In this document: piece after piece, positions 3,068 to 17,762 of the stretch | Layout: every line of letters begins with the position of its first letter | How positions within the stretch are numbered: position 1 is the stretch's first letter | From: a virus | Strand: one strand, 5' to 3' | Length of the DNA stretch: 20,569 bases | Virus record (IMG/VR): IMGVR_UViG_3300025168_000865 | Coordinates: 1 to 20,569 of that record | Translations under genes and position numbers: made by a program | Notes under the pieces: model-generated | Databases searched by the model: none | What the model saw: the letters and a program-made list of their open reading frames with translations, nothing else | Told to the model about the DNA's origin: nothing

Positions 3068-4045
3068 TTAGGCAGATGGTACTGCCATAACAAAACCAGC
3101 TTCAGGACGATACACCTGAACACCGTAGAGGGTGTCAGCGGTGTACAGAGTAGATAAGTACTCTTGCTTGTACTGAGTCTGAGAGCGAACAGCTAACTGC
3201 TCTGCCATTACGACAGCATCAGCGTGGAACAACAGCGCGGCACGAGTGTCGACGCTTGATGCAGTGTTATCGCCAGCAGCTTCGATAGTTCGGCAGTTAG
3301 CAGAAACGTAAACGTCTACGCCATACAGGTTGCCGATCAAGCCGTTGTTGACAGTTCCACCAGACACAAAGTCAGATGACACGTAACGATCAATACCCAT
3401 AATCGCATTGCGCGTTGCAGGCGGAATAATCAAGTTACGATTTTCCATCGGTACATTGTTGTCATCCATCTTCTGGATCATGTCGCGGAAAAACGCATCC
3501 GTGAACTCGTCACCAGCTACCAGAGTGTCATCAGTGTACTGAGTGGTAGTGCCGTTATCATTAAAGAAACAACCAGTGTGCTGGTAGTCAGTAGCAGCAG
3601 GGCTAAATACAACAGCGCCGCCGTCACCAAAACCAGTACCAGCCGCGTGCAGGTCGTTGTCAACCTGTACAGCCAGAGCGTAACCAGCGTCTTCAGTGTA
3701 GAACTGACGCAGAGATGACAGAGCCTGTACCTCTACGATGTCCTCGATCAGACGTGAGTACTCAAAGTGCCGGTTAATAGTAACCTGCAGCTCTGACTCG
3801 GTGTTTGCAATGATAGTTACCGCAGTATCAGCCGCTTTAGCGTTGGCATCACCACGAGTAGGCTTAGGGATATGAATAACGTCACCTTTCTTGCCAGTCA
3901 TAGCGAGACGCTTGACAAGGGGTGCCATTTTCAAGTTCTTTTGATATGCAGCAATAATTTCATCTGACCAAATTTCTGGTACAAAAGTTGCCGCTTCTGT
4001 TAGCGCAGTATTACCACCTGCACCGGGATAAGTTGCTGTAGCCAT
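3068..4045 (-). CDS. Major capsid protein
   Basis: A 325-aa protein of a size and composition typical of HK97-fold phage coat proteins. It opens ATATYPGAGGNTALTEAATFVPEIWSDEI, with basic KRLAMTGKKGDVIHIPKP at about 46-63, then EFSRLIEDI-like and DNDLHAAGTG segments. The C-terminal region carries YKQEYLSTLYTADTLYGVQVYRP. It immediately follows the scaffold gene, which is the standard order. The ribosome site (AAAGGAGATAACTC before the ATG at 4045) is the strongest in the left arm, as expected for the most abundant virion protein. A terminator-like hairpin follows. I infer the capsid role from motifs and position; the subfamily is not determined. Confidence 0.85.
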   Translation of the reverse strand: MATATYPGAGGNTALTEAATFVPEIWSDEIIAAYQKNLKMAPLVKRLAMTGKKGDVIHIPKPTRGDANAKAADTAVTIIANTESELQVTINRHFEYSRLIEDIVEVQALSSLRQFYTEDAGYALAVQVDNDLHAAGTGFGDGGAVVFSPAATDYQHTGCFFNDNGTTTQYTDDTLVAGDEFTDAFFRDMIQKMDDNNVPMENRNLIIPPATRNAIMGIDRYVSSDFVSGGTVNNGLIGNLYGVDVYVSANCRTIEAAGDNTASSVDTRAALLFHADAVVMAEQLAVRSQTQYKQEYLSTLYTADTLYGVQVYRPEAGFVMAVPSA

Positions 4046-4899: not shown

Positions 4900-5139
4900 T
4901 TATTGGGATTGACTCTCACGAGCTTCCCTTCCTCGTCGCCCAGCTTTTTCGTGTTCTCGCACCCACTTTATGTGTCTTCCGGGGAAGTCACCAGTAGATC
5001 CATCAAGAATAAACGGTGTTGCTGAAACGATTTTTGTAGCGTTAGCACCACATCCGCACCTAATGGTTGTGGTATCTTGATCTACAAATTCTTCAAATAT
5101 GTGTCCGTTAGTACAACGAAAATCGAATACTTTAATCAT
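4900..5139 (-). CDS. FmdB-like zinc-ribbon protein
   Basis: The ATG at 5139 gives a 79-aa protein beginning MIKVFDFRCTNGHIFEEF. This matches the usual FmdB-family opening (short strand, aromatic-Asp, Cys, then Asn-Gly-His), with a second knuckle RCGCGA about 20 residues later. Zn ligands would be Cys9, His13 and the two later cysteines. The C-terminus is basic and Arg-rich (EKAGRRGREARESQSQ). The frame is open upstream to 5160, but the start at 5139 fits the family and overlaps the previous stop by 8 nt. It sits between an unknown gene and the scaffold in the capsid operon. Such proteins are frequent in phages without a proven role; nucleic-acid binding is inference. Confidence 0.7.
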   Translation of the reverse strand: MIKVFDFRCTNGHIFEEFVDQDTTTIRCGCGANATKIVSATPFILDGSTGDFPGRHIKWVREHEKAGRRGREARESQSQ

Positions 5140-5371
5140 TATCTTTGTCAAGCTCATCATAATTAGTATTTGTTGTAGACTCTAAATTTAAAATGTATGC
5201 TAAGACGTTTAGCTGTCCTTTACGTACATACAAATCATTCGTGTCTTTAGTAGCTTCAACACTATTAATCACTAAAGCGTTCTGTTTTAGTTCTTCAATT
5301 AGTTGTTTCCAACCGTCAGTAGAAAACAGGGTGAAGTAATTGTCGTAATACTTTTGTATTTCTTGATCCAC
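5132..5371 (-). CDS. Small conserved-looking protein of unknown function, first gene of the capsid operon
   Basis: A 79-aa protein starting with GTG at 5371, chosen because CCTAAGAGGCCTCAA places an AAGAGG ribosome site at good distance and no ATG lies near. It begins MDQEIQKYYDNYFTLFSTDG, with WKQLIEELKQNALVINS and RKGQLNVLAYILNLES as amphipathic segments, and it ends acidic. No catalytic motif or transmembrane segment is seen. It is the first gene after the promoter at 5426-5454, suggesting an early step in head assembly. I do not recognise a named family; compact phage head operons often carry a protein of this size. Confidence 0.68.
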   Translation of the reverse strand: MDQEIQKYYDNYFTLFSTDGWKQLIEELKQNALVINSVEATKDTNDLYVRKGQLNVLAYILNLESTTNTNYDELDKDND

Positions 5372-5457: not shown

Positions 5458-5715
5458 CTATTTACCTTTTTTGGTAGTTTTTCTCCTTTTGCCCGAGGCA
5501 GTAACAGCGTATTTAATTGCCTTTGGGCCTCTTTTTTTGCGTTTTGCGGCTTCTTTCTCTGCTTTGGTCATCTTGGCGGCTACCGCTTTTGGCCTGCAAG
5601 CTGGGTAAGGACGTTTAGACCCTTTGGCTTTTTTACGGCCACATTTCTTTCCGGTCTTTATGTCAACCCACTCTTCTTTAAACCATTTAGTTAAACCGCC
5701 TTTAGACTTAGGCAT
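5458..5715 (-). CDS. Very basic small protein, DUF5872-like
   Basis: An 85-aa protein starting at the ATG at 5715 (MPKSKGGLTKWFKEEWVDI), not at the longer open frame reaching 5784, because the ATG overlaps the previous stop by 8 nt and the GGLTKWFKEEWVDI opening fits the family. Then come TGKKCGRKKAKGSKRPYPACRP and a Lys/Arg-rich tail (KRKKRGPKAIKY, GKRRKTTKKGK). The two cysteines in CGRK and YPACRP are family-like. I recall this domain as DUF5872, seen in marine phages and large algal viruses; function unknown. The strong positive charge suggests nucleic-acid or polyanion binding inside the virion or cell, which is inference. It is the last gene of the basic cassette, just before the capsid-operon promoter. 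Confidence 0.75.
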   Translation of the reverse strand: MPKSKGGLTKWFKEEWVDIKTGKKCGRKKAKGSKRPYPACRPKAVAAKMTKAEKEAAKRKKRGPKAIKYAVTASGKRRKTTKKGK

Positions 5716-5893
5716 AAGTACCACCGCGCTTCTTGTACGTCTTGACCAACCAAGCATTAGCGTACGCACTAGGGTACACATCAAACTTGCGCTTAGCTTC
5801 TGCTTTAACCCTAGAGTAAAGAGCCTTGTTCTTTACATTACTAGGTATAGAACTCTTTTTTTTCTTAGGCTTGGTTTTCTTTTTTGCAGTCAT
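5708..5893 (-). CDS. Lysine-rich conserved small phage protein
   Basis: A 61-aa protein. The first 15 residues are nearly all Lys (TAKKKTKPKKKKSS). A compact segment follows: ALYSRVKAEAKRKFDVYPSA then YANAWLVKTYKKRGGTYA. The KxKFDVYPSAYANxWLVKxYKxRGG pattern recurs in many marine phage genomes by my recollection and usually follows the portal region; no function is established. The ATG at 5893 overlaps the stop of the 26-aa gene upstream as TAATG, and its own stop overlaps the next ATG. This makes three consecutive coupled basic genes. Confidence 0.75.
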   Translation of the reverse strand: MTAKKKTKPKKKKSSIPSNVKNKALYSRVKAEAKRKFDVYPSAYANAWLVKTYKKRGGTYA

Positions 5894-6137: not shown

Positions 6138-6404
6138 TTACCAGTTTTTGCAAGACCAGTATCTTGCGGTGAGTTTGCTAGGCTTGTTTGTATCACACCT
6201 GTGCCTAGCCCTAAATGACTTACGCCGTGCTGGTTGATCTTTTTTAATCTTCATATTAGCGTCACCAAAGCGTATAGTCTTGGTCTTGTCACCTTCCTTG
6301 GCTACTACTACAAACTTCTTGGTTGGGTGGTTAGGAGTCCGCTTCGGTTTGTTGTAACCGCTTACTCCTGCTCGTTCCAGCTTTGGATCCTTTTTCTTTG
6401 GCAT
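6138..6404 (-). CDS. DUF6321-like basic protein
   Basis: An 88-aa protein beginning MPKKKDPKLERAGVSGYNKP then KRTPNHPTKKFVVVAKEGDK and KTIRFGDANM. The middle and end are RRKSFRARHRCDTNKPSKLT and ARYWSCKNW. The DPKLERAGVSGYNKPKRTP...HVVVAKEGDKxKTIRFG...ARYW pattern is what I recall as DUF6321, present in cyanophages and algal viruses, function unknown. Its ATG shares one base with the portal stop (TAATG), so it is coupled to portal translation. Its first 74 nt are also read in another frame by the coiled-coil gene at 6331-6519. Confidence 0.78.
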   Translation of the reverse strand: MPKKKDPKLERAGVSGYNKPKRTPNHPTKKFVVVAKEGDKTKTIRFGDANMKIKKDQPARRKSFRARHRCDTNKPSKLTARYWSCKNW

Positions 6405-6519
6405 TAACCCTGTCCTCCAAATTGTTCACTTGGCATTGTAAGGTCTCTAACTGGTCCTTGAGGTCTTTGAACGCTTCGTTGATCTGCTTGAGTAGGCTGT
6501 TGAGTTCTGTTTGTGTCAT
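6331..6519 (-). CDS. Overlapping coiled-coil protein, out of frame over the portal 3' end
   Basis: ATG at 6519 gives a 62-aa product. Hydrophobic residues Leu6, Leu10, Ile13, Phe17, Leu20, Leu24, Leu27, Val31, Leu34 and Val38 follow strict 4-3 spacing, so residues 5-39 form almost five perfect heptads of a parallel coiled coil. A charged, Lys/Arg/Ser-rich tail follows (AKEKGSKAGTSRSKRLQQ). It overlaps the portal C-terminal coding region by 116 nt and the DUF6321-like gene by 74 nt, in a different frame from each. The portal in that stretch is low-complexity (Gln, Asn, Pro, Arg), which permits dual coding. A preceding ATG at 6525 is possible; the ribosome site is weak, so translation probably depends on coupling. 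A small head or packaging accessory protein is a guess. Confidence 0.68.
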   Translation of the reverse strand: MTQTELNSLLKQINEAFKDLKDQLETLQCQVNNLEDRVNAKEKGSKAGTSRSKRLQQTEADS

Positions 6520-8428
6520 TAGCATTTGGAGTTTTGCCCTGTATTTCTAATTCTTTGAGGTATCTATCTGCAACTTTGAGCCGTCTGTCAAACTCTTTGT
6601 CGTCAGAATCTCCTTCTTTGATGTTTTTAGTAACTGCGTTAAGAACATCAATCTCTAGCTCCTGAGGCATAAGTTGTGTTTCTACAGCCAACTTCTGTGC
6701 TCTAGCTTGGGATTCTGCTGCTTGTCCTGAAAGCGCTGCTGTTTGACTCTGCTGGAAAGCAATCTGCGCCTGTTGCGCCTGCATAGCCATTTGTTGTGCT
6801 TCTGGGTTAGGCTGAGCAGCTTGATTCATTGCTGCAATAAGTTCTTCACGATTACTGAGGTTCATATTGTCGATAATGCTTTGAATCAACACAGGATACA
6901 GAGGGCTGTCTTGTTTCATTGTTTGCAGCAGTTGAACAAGCTGGGTTACTTCGTATTCTCTAGCAATAATTCCAAGGGTGCTTGTTGCCGTAAACTTATA
7001 ATCTGCTACAGGATAGTTCTCAGGATCAAACTGCATATATCGGTGTGCAGCTTTGGTTACGAAAGGTAAAAGGAAAGACTGCTGGAAGTTAATTAAAGTA
7101 CGCTTATGACGCTTAATAATAGCACCAAGAGACATACTAATGCCAGCAGCGGTTGCTTCATTATTGACTTTTCCTGTAATGCCTGCGGAATCTACTGCTC
7201 CAGTTGCTTGTTGCACCATTTGTTGAAGGCTTGCCGCTTGTGCAAAGGTAATTTGACCCACTTGACCAAAGTTAAACGGCTGGAGTACTTCACGAGGGTC
7301 TCCATTAGTTAAAATCATCTTGCCGGGGCGAATTTCAGGCTTTGCGCCTCTAGGAAGTCGTGTAGCGTCCACAGCCATCATTGGATGAATTGTTAGGCTC
7401 AGGGCGTCAATACGCGCTCTAAGCTCTGTATCTAGTGCTTTCTGGCTGTTGTATCCCTTCTCGCATACTCCACGACCCCAGAAACGTCCGGGTACTACGT
7501 CCCACGGGAACGCGACCACAGGGCGGTCTTTCATCATGTATGGGTTGGCTTCTGCTTTAAGAAGAGTACCACCGTTAGCAATTACCACGATTGCCTCGAC
7601 GTACATAGAGTCTTCTTCTATTTCTACACCTTCTTCTTTTAGAAGCTCACGAGGCACAAGACCGTAGTACTTAGTCAGCCGTACCTTGTCATCATTATAG
7701 ATAGTAAGGTCTTGATCAGGTTCTAAGTCTGTGTCAGCAACAGCAGACTCAATAAAACCTTCGCGGTACACGCCTTGCTCTTGCAAAAGTTCTACAGAGT
7801 GTCTAGACACAAACTCATCAATAGCCACTCCGTAAGCATCATCAACTGAGGTAGCTACGGGGTCTATCAGAAAGTTTTGTGGTAGCACTGGCTTGAGTTT
7901 TACAACCACACGATCTTTAACGTTGACACCCACAGCAGTCAACTGACCGTCCATAATAGGCTGAGTGGCCGGAGCCATCTCTTTAATTTCTTCTAGTACA
8001 ACCTCACCAACCCCAGTACCAAACACTGCTGCGTTAATAAGACACTCTGCTACAGCCTTACGGACCTTACAGACCTCAAAGTCTTCTGTCAGTTTTTTAC
8101 GTAAATAAGTAATATCCTGACGTTCTTTATCGTTTACATCATCAGTAATATCAAAAAACTTACCACGACCGAACGTAGCTTCTTCTAGCTCTGCAACGTT
8201 AGACTCTACAGCCTGTTGCAGCGCAGGAGAAATAATTCTAGAACGTTCAGACCCTCTTTGCGAGTCATGCGGATCCCACTGACCTCGCCACAGCCTATAG
8301 TATTCTTCAAATCTTTCTTCGTAGTTTGACTCATAGTAATCTCGCCAATCTTCACACTTTGTCATTACCCACTCTTCCAAGGATTCTTGGATCATCAGCG
8401 GGTCTGGACTATAAATTTCTTCTGCCAT
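6404..8428 (-). CDS. Portal protein (head-tail connector)
   Basis: A 674-aa protein that would form the dodecameric ring at the capsid vertex through which DNA enters. It begins AEEIYSPDPLMIQESLEEWV, with WRDYYESNYEERFEEYYRLW then RGQWDPHDSQRGSERSRI, an opening typical of podovirus-type portals. GRFWGRGVCEKGYNSQKALD (about 311-330) and the following helical region fit the family. The C-terminal third is Gln/Ala-rich and coiled (AMQAQQAQIAFQQSQTAALS), as portal barrels often are, ending in a disordered NRTQQPTQADQRSVQRPQGP tail that overlaps the coiled-coil gene. The ATG at 8428 has AAGGAAAA upstream. Position after the large terminase supports the call. Length is within the podovirus portal range. 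Confidence 0.88.
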   Translation of the reverse strand: MAEEIYSPDPLMIQESLEEWVMTKCEDWRDYYESNYEERFEEYYRLWRGQWDPHDSQRGSERSRIISPALQQAVESNVAELEEATFGRGKFFDITDDVNDKERQDITYLRKKLTEDFEVCKVRKAVAECLINAAVFGTGVGEVVLEEIKEMAPATQPIMDGQLTAVGVNVKDRVVVKLKPVLPQNFLIDPVATSVDDAYGVAIDEFVSRHSVELLQEQGVYREGFIESAVADTDLEPDQDLTIYNDDKVRLTKYYGLVPRELLKEEGVEIEEDSMYVEAIVVIANGGTLLKAEANPYMMKDRPVVAFPWDVVPGRFWGRGVCEKGYNSQKALDTELRARIDALSLTIHPMMAVDATRLPRGAKPEIRPGKMILTNGDPREVLQPFNFGQVGQITFAQAASLQQMVQQATGAVDSAGITGKVNNEATAAGISMSLGAIIKRHKRTLINFQQSFLLPFVTKAAHRYMQFDPENYPVADYKFTATSTLGIIAREYEVTQLVQLLQTMKQDSPLYPVLIQSIIDNMNLSNREELIAAMNQAAQPNPEAQQMAMQAQQAQIAFQQSQTAALSGQAAESQARAQKLAVETQLMPQELEIDVLNAVTKNIKEGDSDDKEFDRRLKVADRYLKELEIQGKTPNANDTNRTQQPTQADQRSVQRPQGPVRDLTMPSEQFGGQG

Positions 8429-14509: not shown

Positions 14510-16119
14510 TGGGTGATAAATTCTTATACCACGAGGAATGTCCCAAGTGTGGTAGTAAGGATAACATGGCGGTCTACTCTAACGGTGGCCGCCACTGTTT
14601 CACACCAGACTGCGGGTATCACGTAAACGGTAACACAGGAGAAGAAACGGAAGTGTCAACACCGAGTAACTTATACATGGGTGGCGTAGTGTCTGCCATA
14701 CCTGACAGGAGGCTGTCGGAGGGTACGTGTAAGCGTTACCAAGTGACAGTAGAGTACGCTCCTGACGGTACGATTGATGCACACTACTACCCTTACTTTG
14801 ACAAGGACACTGGCGAGGTAGTAGGCGCTAAGAAGCGTGTGGTAAAGACAAAGCAATTTAGTGCTTCAGGCAACCACAGTAATGTAGGCTTGTTCGGTCA
14901 GAAGCATTGCAGAGGCACAGGTAAGTACCTCGTGATAACTGAGGGCGAGTTAGACGCTATGTCTGTCTACGAGATGTTTGGACAGAAGTACGACGTAGTA
15001 TCGCTACGGACAGGAGCGTCTAGCGCATCTAAGGAGATCAAGCAGAACCTAGAGTGGCTAGAGGGTTACGAGAACGTGGTCATTTGTTTTGACCAAGACA
15101 AGGCTGGAGAGTTAGCGTTAGAGCAGGTCAAGGATCTCTTTAGCCCTAACAAGCTTAAGATATGTAAGCTCCCTCTGAAGGACGCCAGTGAAATGCTCAT
15201 GGCTAACAGGGTGCAAGAGTTTACACAGGCATTCTGGGACTCAGCAGTGTACAGACCTGACGGTATTGTGGCTGGAACTGAGACTTGGGATAAGCTAGTA
15301 GCCAAGCGCCAAGTGAAGAGCATACCGTACCCTTGGGATGGCCTAAACGAAATAACAAGGGGGCACAGGCCGTATGAACTCGTCACTATCACCAGCGGCA
15401 GTGGTATGGGAAAGTCCCAGTTTATACGAGAACTTGAGTACGATCTACTGCAAAGAACTGAATCCAACATTGGTGTACTTGCACTGGAGGAGGACGTTGC
15501 AACAACAGCACTGGGAATCATGTCGGTGGCATCCTCTAGGCGACTACACTTGGAAGAAGATTCACCTGTCGATGACCTTAGACCGCACTGGGAAGCAACA
15601 ATGGGGTCAGGTCGTTACTATCTTTTCGACCACTGGGGGTCAGCATCAGCGGACGAGTTACTATCACGAGTCAGGCACATGGCAAAGGCTTGCGACTGCC
15701 GGTACATCATCCTCGACCACTTATCAATCGTCGTTTCTTCTCAAGAAAACGGAGATGAACGGAAAGCCATTGACGAAATAATGACCAAGCTGCGGACACT
15801 GGTGGCTGAGACAGGGATCAGTTTGTTCCTAGTGTCACACCTACGTCGTAGCTCTGGCACTGCTCACGAGGACGGTGGACGTATCAGTCTACAGGACTTA
15901 CGGGGTAGCCAGAGTATCGCCCAGTTGTCTGATATGGTCATAGGTATGGAGCGTGACCAACAGAACCCAGATGAGGACATAAGGAACACAACGACTGTAC
16001 GTATCCTTAAGAATCGTTACTCTGGTGAAACTGGCCCCGCTTGCTGGCTACGTTACGATAAGCTTACAGGACGCATCCACGAGTGCGCTAACCCCACGCC
16101 ACCGGAGACAGAGTTTTGA
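14509..16119 (+). CDS. Bifunctional primase-helicase (T7 gp4 type)
   Basis: A 536-aa protein with the full domain order. The N-terminal zinc-binding domain has Cys11, Cys14, Cys30 and Cys35 (CPKCGS, then RHCFTPDCGYH). The Toprim primase domain has Glu145 in ITEGELDAM and Asp195/Asp197 in VICFDQDKAG. A linker leads to a RecA-type hexameric helicase with Walker A GSGMGKS (297-303), Walker B YIILDHLS and motif SLFLVSHLRR, then GSQSIAQLSDMVIGMERD. It would unwind the fork and lay primers for the adjacent polymerase. Length is close to T7 gp4 (566 aa). It overlaps the SSB stop by one base and the polymerase start by 4, so these three are probably made in fixed ratio. Confidence 0.95.
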   Translation: MGDKFLYHEECPKCGSKDNMAVYSNGGRHCFTPDCGYHVNGNTGEETEVSTPSNLYMGGVVSAIPDRRLSEGTCKRYQVTVEYAPDGTIDAHYYPYFDKDTGEVVGAKKRVVKTKQFSASGNHSNVGLFGQKHCRGTGKYLVITEGELDAMSVYEMFGQKYDVVSLRTGASSASKEIKQNLEWLEGYENVVICFDQDKAGELALEQVKDLFSPNKLKICKLPLKDASEMLMANRVQEFTQAFWDSAVYRPDGIVAGTETWDKLVAKRQVKSIPYPWDGLNEITRGHRPYELVTITSGSGMGKSQFIRELEYDLLQRTESNIGVLALEEDVATTALGIMSVASSRRLHLEEDSPVDDLRPHWEATMGSGRYYLFDHWGSASADELLSRVRHMAKACDCRYIILDHLSIVVSSQENGDERKAIDEIMTKLRTLVAETGISLFLVSHLRRSSGTAHEDGGRISLQDLRGSQSIAQLSDMVIGMERDQQNPDEDIRNTTTVRILKNRYSGETGPACWLRYDKLTGRIHECANPTPPETEF

Positions 16120-17762
16120 GCCTAGTCTTCTGTGACATAGAAACTGACGGGCTAAACCCTAGCGTTATCTGGTGTGCTGTCTGTCTACACAACGGAGAAT
16201 CAGAGGTAATATGTAATGAGCAAGATTTCAAAGAATATGTATCGCGTAAAGCGCCGGTTACGTTCGTATTCCACAACGGAGTTGGCTTTGATGTTCCTGT
16301 GGTCGAGCGTCTTTGGTCTTTTACTTTTGACAGGAGCATGGTCACTGACACTCTGATCTTGTCACGCTTGGCTGACCCTAGTCGGTCTGGTGGACACTCT
16401 CTAAGGAACTGGGGAAACATCCTAGGCTACGCTAAGGGCGACTACGAGGATTGGTCACAGTTGACACCTGAGATGATTGACTACTGCATCAGGGACACTA
16501 AGGTTACACAGGAAGTGTACAAGCGACTAATGGTTGAACTGTCGGACTTCTCGCAACAGTGCATTGATCTAGAACACGAGGTACAGTGGATCATACAGGA
16601 GCAGGTAAACAACGGGTGGCTACTAGATCAGCGTTTGTGCCACACGTTGTGCGCTAGGTTCAAGGAGAGTATGTATGCTATTGAGGATGAACTCCAGAAA
16701 GTGTTCCCGCCTATTGTCGAGGAAAGGGTGTCAGAAAAGACAGGCAAGCGCCTTAAGGATAAGGTTACGATCTTCAATCCCGGCTCACGCCAACAAGTTG
16801 CAGAAAGACTTGAGGCTAAGGGTGCTGTATGGTCGGAACTCACGCCCAGCGGTAGGCCGCAGGTGGACGAAAAGACCCTTGAGGAAAACAAACACGTACC
16901 GGAGGCTGTTCGGGTCTTAGAGTACCTCTTGTTACAGAAGCGGTACGCACAGGTATCGTCTTGGCTAGAACACGTACAGGACGACGGCAGGGTACACGGT
17001 AGGGTTACAACAAACGGAGCAGTCACAGGACGTATGACGCACCAGACCCCTAACATGGCACAGGTGCCTTCAGTTAACTCGCAGTACGGTAAGGAGTGTA
17101 GAGACTGCTGGATAGTACCTGAGGATCGTAAGCTGGTAGGTGTTGATGCCAGTGGACTGGAGTTACGTATGTTAGCTCACTACATGGACGATGAGGAGTT
17201 TACTAGTGTCCTACTTAGAGAAGATATTCACACCAGAAATCAAGTTGCTGCGGGACTTGCAACAAGACCTCAGGCAAAGACTTTCATCTACGCTTTCCTC
17301 TACGGAGCAGGGGACGCTAAACTTGGAAGCATCGTCGGAGGAACTGCAAAAGATGGCAGTAAGCTTAGGGGGCGCTTTCTACGAAATACACCTGCTCTTG
17401 AAACTCTACGAGAACGAGTTGGACAAGCGTCTAGGAAAGGCTTCCTCGTCGGAATTGACGGACGTAAGCTCTGGGTCAGATCAGAACATAGTGCATTAAA
17501 TACACTGCTACAGGCCGCTGGTGCTATCGTTATGAAGAGGGCTTTGGTTCTCTTAGATGACTACGCTACCCAGCACAAGATTGACTATAGATTCGTAGGA
17601 AACGTGCATGATGAAATACAAACGGAGGTTGTCACAGAACAGGCAGGGAAGTTTGGGTGGCTCGCAGTGGAGTGCATCAAGGCGTCGGGTCTATCATTCG
17701 ACCTCAGATGCCCACTCGATGGAGAGTATAAAGTTGGACAAACGTGGTCGGATACACACTGA
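16116..17762 (+). CDS. polA: Family A DNA polymerase with 3'-5' exonuclease
   Basis: A 548-aa polymerase. The start is TTG at 16116-16118, because the exonuclease motif DIETDG (Asp7, Glu9) lies only seven residues in and no ATG precedes it; GGAG 8 nt upstream supports it. Exonuclease motif II is FVFHNGVGFD (Asn54, Asp59) and III YCIRD (Tyr123, Asp127), so proofreading looks complete. Polymerase motif A is VGVDASGLELR (Asp344), motif B RPQAKTFIYAFLYG (Arg384, Lys388, Tyr392), motif C VGNVHDE (Asp499). Tyr392 corresponds to E. coli Phe762 and T7 Tyr526. It is shorter than T7 gp5 (704 aa). The start overlaps the helicase stop as TTGA. Confidence 0.95.
   Translation: MSLVFCDIETDGLNPSVIWCAVCLHNGESEVICNEQDFKEYVSRKAPVTFVFHNGVGFDVPVVERLWSFTFDRSMVTDTLILSRLADPSRSGGHSLRNWGNILGYAKGDYEDWSQLTPEMIDYCIRDTKVTQEVYKRLMVELSDFSQQCIDLEHEVQWIIQEQVNNGWLLDQRLCHTLCARFKESMYAIEDELQKVFPPIVEERVSEKTGKRLKDKVTIFNPGSRQQVAERLEAKGAVWSELTPSGRPQVDEKTLEENKHVPEAVRVLEYLLLQKRYAQVSSWLEHVQDDGRVHGRVTTNGAVTGRMTHQTPNMAQVPSVNSQYGKECRDCWIVPEDRKLVGVDASGLELRMLAHYMDDEEFTSVLLREDIHTRNQVAAGLATRPQAKTFIYAFLYGAGDAKLGSIVGGTAKDGSKLRGRFLRNTPALETLRERVGQASRKGFLVGIDGRKLWVRSEHSALNTLLQAAGAIVMKRALVLLDDYATQHKIDYRFVGNVHDEIQTEVVTEQAGKFGWLAVECIKASGLSFDLRCPLDGEYKVGQTWSDTH

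Follow-up and report, generated by a model that had tools for sequence, protein, structure and literature searches.

Through comparison of related phage loci, we identify a minus-strand open reading frame at 6525-6331 of the window (the whole 20,569-nucleotide stretch of viral DNA analysed here) as a genuine protein-coding gene under selection rather than a chance shadow of the genes that it overlaps. The reading that we favour overall—that this gene is real, that the tail of the portal protein grew over it when it was already an ancestral neighbour, and that its product is a coiled-coil factor of the head/portal module—has in our estimation a probability of roughly 0.62.

The frame comprises 64 codons plus a stop, running from an ATG at 6525-6523 to a stop codon at 6333-6331, and counted from this first codon it holds an exact 4-3 series of hydrophobic residues (L8, L12, I15, F19, L22, L26, L29, V33, L36 and V40). 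The initial annotation, which had proposed a hidden coiled-coil gene with ten hydrophobic positions in strict 4-3 spacing, was accurate on this pattern; its residues 6-38 are the identical series, numbered from a second in-frame ATG at codon 3 (6517..6519, minus strand). The upstream gene (6404..8428, minus strand) was also rightly named as the portal, with matches to phrog_1216 (E 7e-54) and SU10_portal (PF23899, E 5e-24), and its last 40 codons are overlapped by the coiled-coil gene in the +1 frame, such that portal third positions are second positions of the ORF and portal first positions are its third positions. This overlap measures 122 nt from codon 1, or the 116 nt given earlier when the ORF is counted from codon 3.

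The next gene on the same strand (6138..6404), whose start shares 1 nt with the portal stop, encodes a basic protein of 88 amino acids and shares 74 nt with the ORF, stop included, as had been described. Its former label of DUF6321 has to be replaced, as the protein matches PHROG 7595 (phrog_7595, E 1e-27), while a Pfam scan returned no DUF6321 and a sub-threshold match to DUF5754 as its sole hit. Proteins of PHROG 7595 are found in 157 phage records, including phages of Vibrio, Roseobacter, Pelagibacter and Synechococcus, and because the gene is so widespread and its neighbourhoods vary among phages, it resembles a mobile accessory gene.

To gauge what chance alone would produce, we held the portal and next-gene proteins fixed and redrew their synonymous codons. 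The frame stayed open for at least 64 codons in 1.5% of redraws for this one genome (0.4% when a start codon was also demanded), a fraction at which a single sequence cannot decide between gene and chance. It is the comparison of relatives that settles the matter in favour of a gene. Relatives were gathered by a search with the portal only (80 loci), which gives no favour to loci that keep the ORF. The frame was kept in 78 of these 80; a diverged in-frame homologue was found in locus L141 (E 1e-7), and the contig of locus L118 stops inside inserted genes before reaching the ORF site, where presence of the ORF cannot be judged. Across the portal overlap, open frames were observed in 76 of 76 loci against 25 expected, which removes the doubt about chance. 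Aligned portal loci thus bear out the conservation of the frame, which is open and heptad-like in relatives.

Diversity by codon position, calculated on 24 non-redundant gap-free loci, points in the same direction. Upstream of the overlap, diversity at portal positions 1, 2 and 3 is 0.23, 0.17 and 0.50, as against 0.41, 0.30 and 0.17 within it, with the third-position drop (0.496 to 0.174) significant at p = 1.5e-13; the synonymous-site constraint that was to be looked for in the portal frame is therefore present. The most variable site in the overlap is portal position 1 (0.41), that is, the ORF's third position, and given how the two frames are registered, the diversity pattern of the overlap is that of the ORF. 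Translated from the same bases, the ORF is more conserved in amino-acid identity than the portal tail (0.594 vs. 0.454). When the portal was redrawn with coherent synonymous changes, identity in the ORF frame fell to 0.448 +/- 0.018, compared with 0.597 observed over 39 residues and a maximum of 0.503 in 300 redraws, and a mean of 6.3 rows remained open as opposed to all 24 observed. The comparison shows that selection preserves the reading frame, the start site and the helical core, and that it does so whatever the portal frame requires.

Loci in which the two genes have been parted provide a further comparison. In 12 distinct relatives, 1.8-3.5 kb are inserted between portal and ORF, leaving the ORF free-standing, and the portal of these loci ends early, with a different short tail. 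Over the 40 codons concerned, these 12 loci contain no stop in the ORF as against 51 stops in the former portal phase, the opposite of the pattern that would have spoken against the gene, namely stops or heptad breaks in the ORF where the portal frame is kept. Three further loci (L018, L043 and L266) were left out of the insertion set as their portal frame is broken internally, probably by sequence errors, and one of the 12 (L325) belongs to a distant, non-overlapping group where there is no need to suppose that an overlap ever existed. The insertions require about 5-6 changes on the portal tree and therefore several insertion events or exchanges. The inserted genes are fibre-like, encoding collagen repeats with LamG, carbohydrate-binding, Gly-rich or propeller domains, and their distribution identifies the portal/coiled-coil junction as a site of repeated insertion of a fibre/adhesin cassette. 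A collagen-repeat-led form of this cassette occupies the junction in L027, L029, L046, L049, L055, L069, L072, L147 and L325, and its first gene mostly starts alike, with MSELVVAAALAK or MSDIVISAALTK.

Taken against these comparisons, the idea that the frame is open by chance and its conservation a mere shadow of the portal and downstream proteins becomes highly implausible. It can draw on the redraws for one genome, in which an open frame is not rare enough, and on the part of the ORF over the downstream gene, which does look shadow-like; against it stand the higher conservation of the ORF over the same bases, the third-position constraint favouring the ORF, and the separated loci, in which the ORF persists and the portal phase is lost. 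Assembly artefact is an unlikely source of these separated loci, which come from unrelated contigs of many samples.

Signals around the start are best explained by translation of the ORF from a start codon of its own (codon 1, either ATG or GTG), preceded by a Shine-Dalgarno-like sequence inside the portal coding region. In the window, this motif is an AGGG at 6537..6540 (minus strand), 11 nt before codon 1 and within the portal coding sequence. Of 141 overlapping loci, 132 carry such an SD-like 4-mer ahead of codon 1 (4-11 nt spacing, mostly 9-11 nt), compared with 9.6% of control positions. Codon 1 itself is ATG in 118 and GTG in 30 of 148 loci; in a second count, which the start-locating method slightly favours, the figures are 101 and 40 of 141. 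The portal Asn codon lying over the codon-3 ATG is AAT in 139/141 loci, including the window, although within the portal core AAT accounts for 25% of the codons for Asn.

The far end of the ORF appears to be under looser control. Its stop position differs widely between relatives, and within the 74-nt overlap it is the downstream gene that hardly varies at positions 1 and 2 (diversity 0.08), with its position 3 reduced to 0.295 from 0.56 beyond the overlap. The charged C-terminal tail of the ORF thus looks like a weakly constrained extension, mostly dictated by the gene that it overlies. That three products share one region, as first proposed, holds for the DNA and fails for any equal constraint, since the ORF's end varies and the downstream gene dominates.

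Structure prediction supports a coiled coil. AlphaFold2, run with a 30-row alignment, gives the ORF product one confident long helix at residues 5-46 (6388..6513, minus strand) that takes in all ten a/d positions, with block means of 89-97 up to residue 40 and low confidence in the tail after it. The hydrophobic a/d columns are kept in the alignment of relatives, in which M1, M3, T4, E7, N16, F19 and L36 are invariant, and we accordingly describe the product as a predicted coiled coil, modelled as a continuous helix with a conserved heptad pattern. The corresponding model of the portal was poor (mean pLDDT 43) and uninformative on disorder of its tail. By gene order among the relatives, a large group of marine podovirus-like phages carries the gene for this family of helical proteins (about 41-90 aa) beside that for the portal. 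The phage group numbers over 400 contigs in one collection and is widespread, marine and apparently uncultured; no cultured phage-host pair was found for it in the phage collection.

Searches for known counterparts returned little. The ORF protein falls outside every PHROG, Pfam and NCBIfam model, its weak coiled-coil cross-matches lying below the cut-off where one exists, and the Pfam Bbp19 model does not match it. A tblastn search against named phages gave no match and no annotated counterpart, a scan of bacterial and archaeal genomes found none, and a structure search with the helix among viral models yielded nothing significant. A PDB profile search found generic coiled coils only (best E 7e-4); such proteins, whether designed trimers or the heptad repeats of viral fusion proteins, have the heptad repeat in common with the ORF product, and we rejected them as homologues, the matches being of repeat pattern only and to designed or eukaryotic-virus proteins. 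Our literature search, of an open library, found no description of the family, which may nonetheless be described elsewhere. The small post-portal genes of HMO-2011, CRP-13, CHOED and phiM6 were also weighed as possible homologues and, on visual inspection, set aside for their different, Bbp19-like pattern. Two of these, HMO-2011 gp50 and CRP-13 gp56 (58-63 aa, Bbp19-like by eye), are apparently helical and directly follow a related portal gene, with a sequence pattern unlike that of the ORF protein; Bbp19-like and coiled-coil genes stand side by side in loci L271 and L272.

How the overlap came about can be read, with some caution, from more distant relatives. Lower-identity portals (about 65-80%) are followed by a free-standing gene, usually after 1 nt and in an equal relative frame, with one such homologue after the portal stop beginning MVITSAQFQDAIDQINAKFEELENKIKELESK... 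In a profile-profile comparison, the free-standing and overlapping sets match with a probability of 93.5% and E 2e-7, values that coiled-coil composition can inflate, and both the start and the QIN-AF region align. On a midpoint-rooted portal tree, the overlapping loci form one clade (SH-aLRT 98), which, together with its insertion-bearing members and those lacking the gene, is nested among adjacent or lacking lineages. Because distant relatives carry the free-standing homologue 1 nt past the portal stop, the overlap probably arose once, and we consider it likely that a lengthening portal tail came to cover a coiled-coil gene already in place. The ancestral gene would have started one base past the portal stop; in a single event that stop was likely lost or moved, after which a Gln/Asn/Pro/Gly-rich portal tail would have been read across the first 40 codons of the ORF. 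The original picture of a hidden gene in a low-complexity portal tail therefore survives as to the gene being real and needs revision as to which partner is new: the gene is probably no newcomer, and the portal tail is the likelier overprinted one, given that in distant relatives the gene stands free after a shorter portal.

The reverse order, in which the overlap is older and the adjacent form came later, when the portal acquired a new stop immediately ahead of the ORF, seems to us less likely, with a minority share of the probability that is by no means small. By a published criterion, the more genome-like frame of an overlap in codon usage is the older one (PMC8227390), and here it is the portal tail that lies closer to the genome than the ORF does, in 24/24 loci; the test thus points to the portal frame as the older, but it is confounded. 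Free-standing copies of the ORF are less atypical in codon usage, so the overlap itself may distort it. The tree root, too, is not fixed independently, as the attempt to root it with named phages foundered on long branches and was unreliable. Against an older overlap, the midpoint root places it inside adjacent or absent lineages, and portal tails are dispensable, as the altered tails of the insertion loci illustrate. For the favoured history of a portal tail extended over its neighbour, we also advance, tentatively and at somewhat less than even odds, a wider form: that a conserved, uncatalogued family of coiled-coil assembly factors, encoded next to the portal, exists in abundant marine phages, and that fibre genes, inserted time and again, undid the overlap in several lineages.

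As to function, three features (the position of the gene beside the portal, its small helical product and its translation shared with the portal) point to a factor that serves assembly in the head module, a role to which we give about an even chance. The product would be a small coiled-coil oligomer for virion assembly within a portal - Bbp19-like - scaffold - capsid module, possibly one that helps to assemble or complete the portal or the procapsid, and its production would keep pace with that of the portal through translation from a common message. In L271 and L272 the gene order is portal - coiled coil - Bbp19-like - Zn ribbon - scaffold - capsid, with neighbour labels that rest on resemblance to the window's own genes. 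The coiled-coil gene is absent from L284 and L270, and is thus replaceable and not universally required. This absence from some related lineages, as is often seen with accessory genes, would also suit a real, translated ORF that acts on the host (in early takeover, defence evasion or regulation), as small overlapping phage genes can do, such as those for superinfection exclusion in phage Fc02 (PMC9936078). We regard such a host role, the main rival, as rather unlikely, since the gene lies within a structural block, sits beside the portal with few exceptions among the lineages that carry it, and stays on the capsid side of fibre genes where these are inserted. Still less probable is that the overlap serves mainly as a translational device tuning the downstream gene, with the peptide itself of little weight: translation of the ORF necessarily crosses the downstream start at 6404, and its variable end implies that the C-terminus matters little, but the helix is conserved in its amino-acid sequence, with several invariant residues, and homologues exist without such a downstream gene and without the overlap.

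Elsewhere in the window, a small Bbp19-like protein (5132-5371, minus strand; sub-threshold to Pfam Bbp19) is encoded in the same operon; in HMO-2011-type phages and in L284 and L270 the Bbp19-like gene directly follows the portal. Two overlapping minus-strand ORFs within 5458-5893 (5893-5708 and 5784-5458) match the first and second halves of Pfam DUF5872 (the former at positions 3-39; the latter, just under the cut-off, at 50-109), and may represent one gene split by a frameshift or programmed slip near 5708-5784. The DNA polymerase (16116-17762, plus strand) is nearest to those of pelagiphages HTVC103P/104P/115P (about 48%), and the capsid protein (3068-4045, minus strand) to those of freshwater cyanophages (about 27-32%), affinities that mark a mosaic of modules.

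Overlapping genes have long been known in phages. As in viral overlaps of the phiX174 type (PMC8227390), two proteins are here read from one stretch in different frames, in +1 phase, and one partner is rich in residues typical of disorder; the present case differs in being a terminal overlap between a structural gene and its neighbour, in which the upstream portal probably grew and the small gene is also free-standing in relatives. The olg1/olg2 genes of phage Fc02 (PMC9936078) likewise encode small proteins in an alternate frame of another phage gene, and are comparable in arrangement alone, lying in a lysogeny region and having a tested function (superinfection exclusion). The arrangement itself is hence of a well-known kind; what is new within the collections searched is the coiled-coil family and the series of freed and overlapped forms.

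Together, these loci offer an unusually clean natural case of dual coding, with one gene free-standing, overlapped and freed again, and with the cost and release of the overlap readable from living sequences. Annotation tools that disfavour long overlaps may miss the coiled-coil gene. With this finding, the head module of widespread, apparently uncultured marine phages gains a small gene family and, if the wider form of our reading is true, two parts of one head machine would be dual-coded and locked together.
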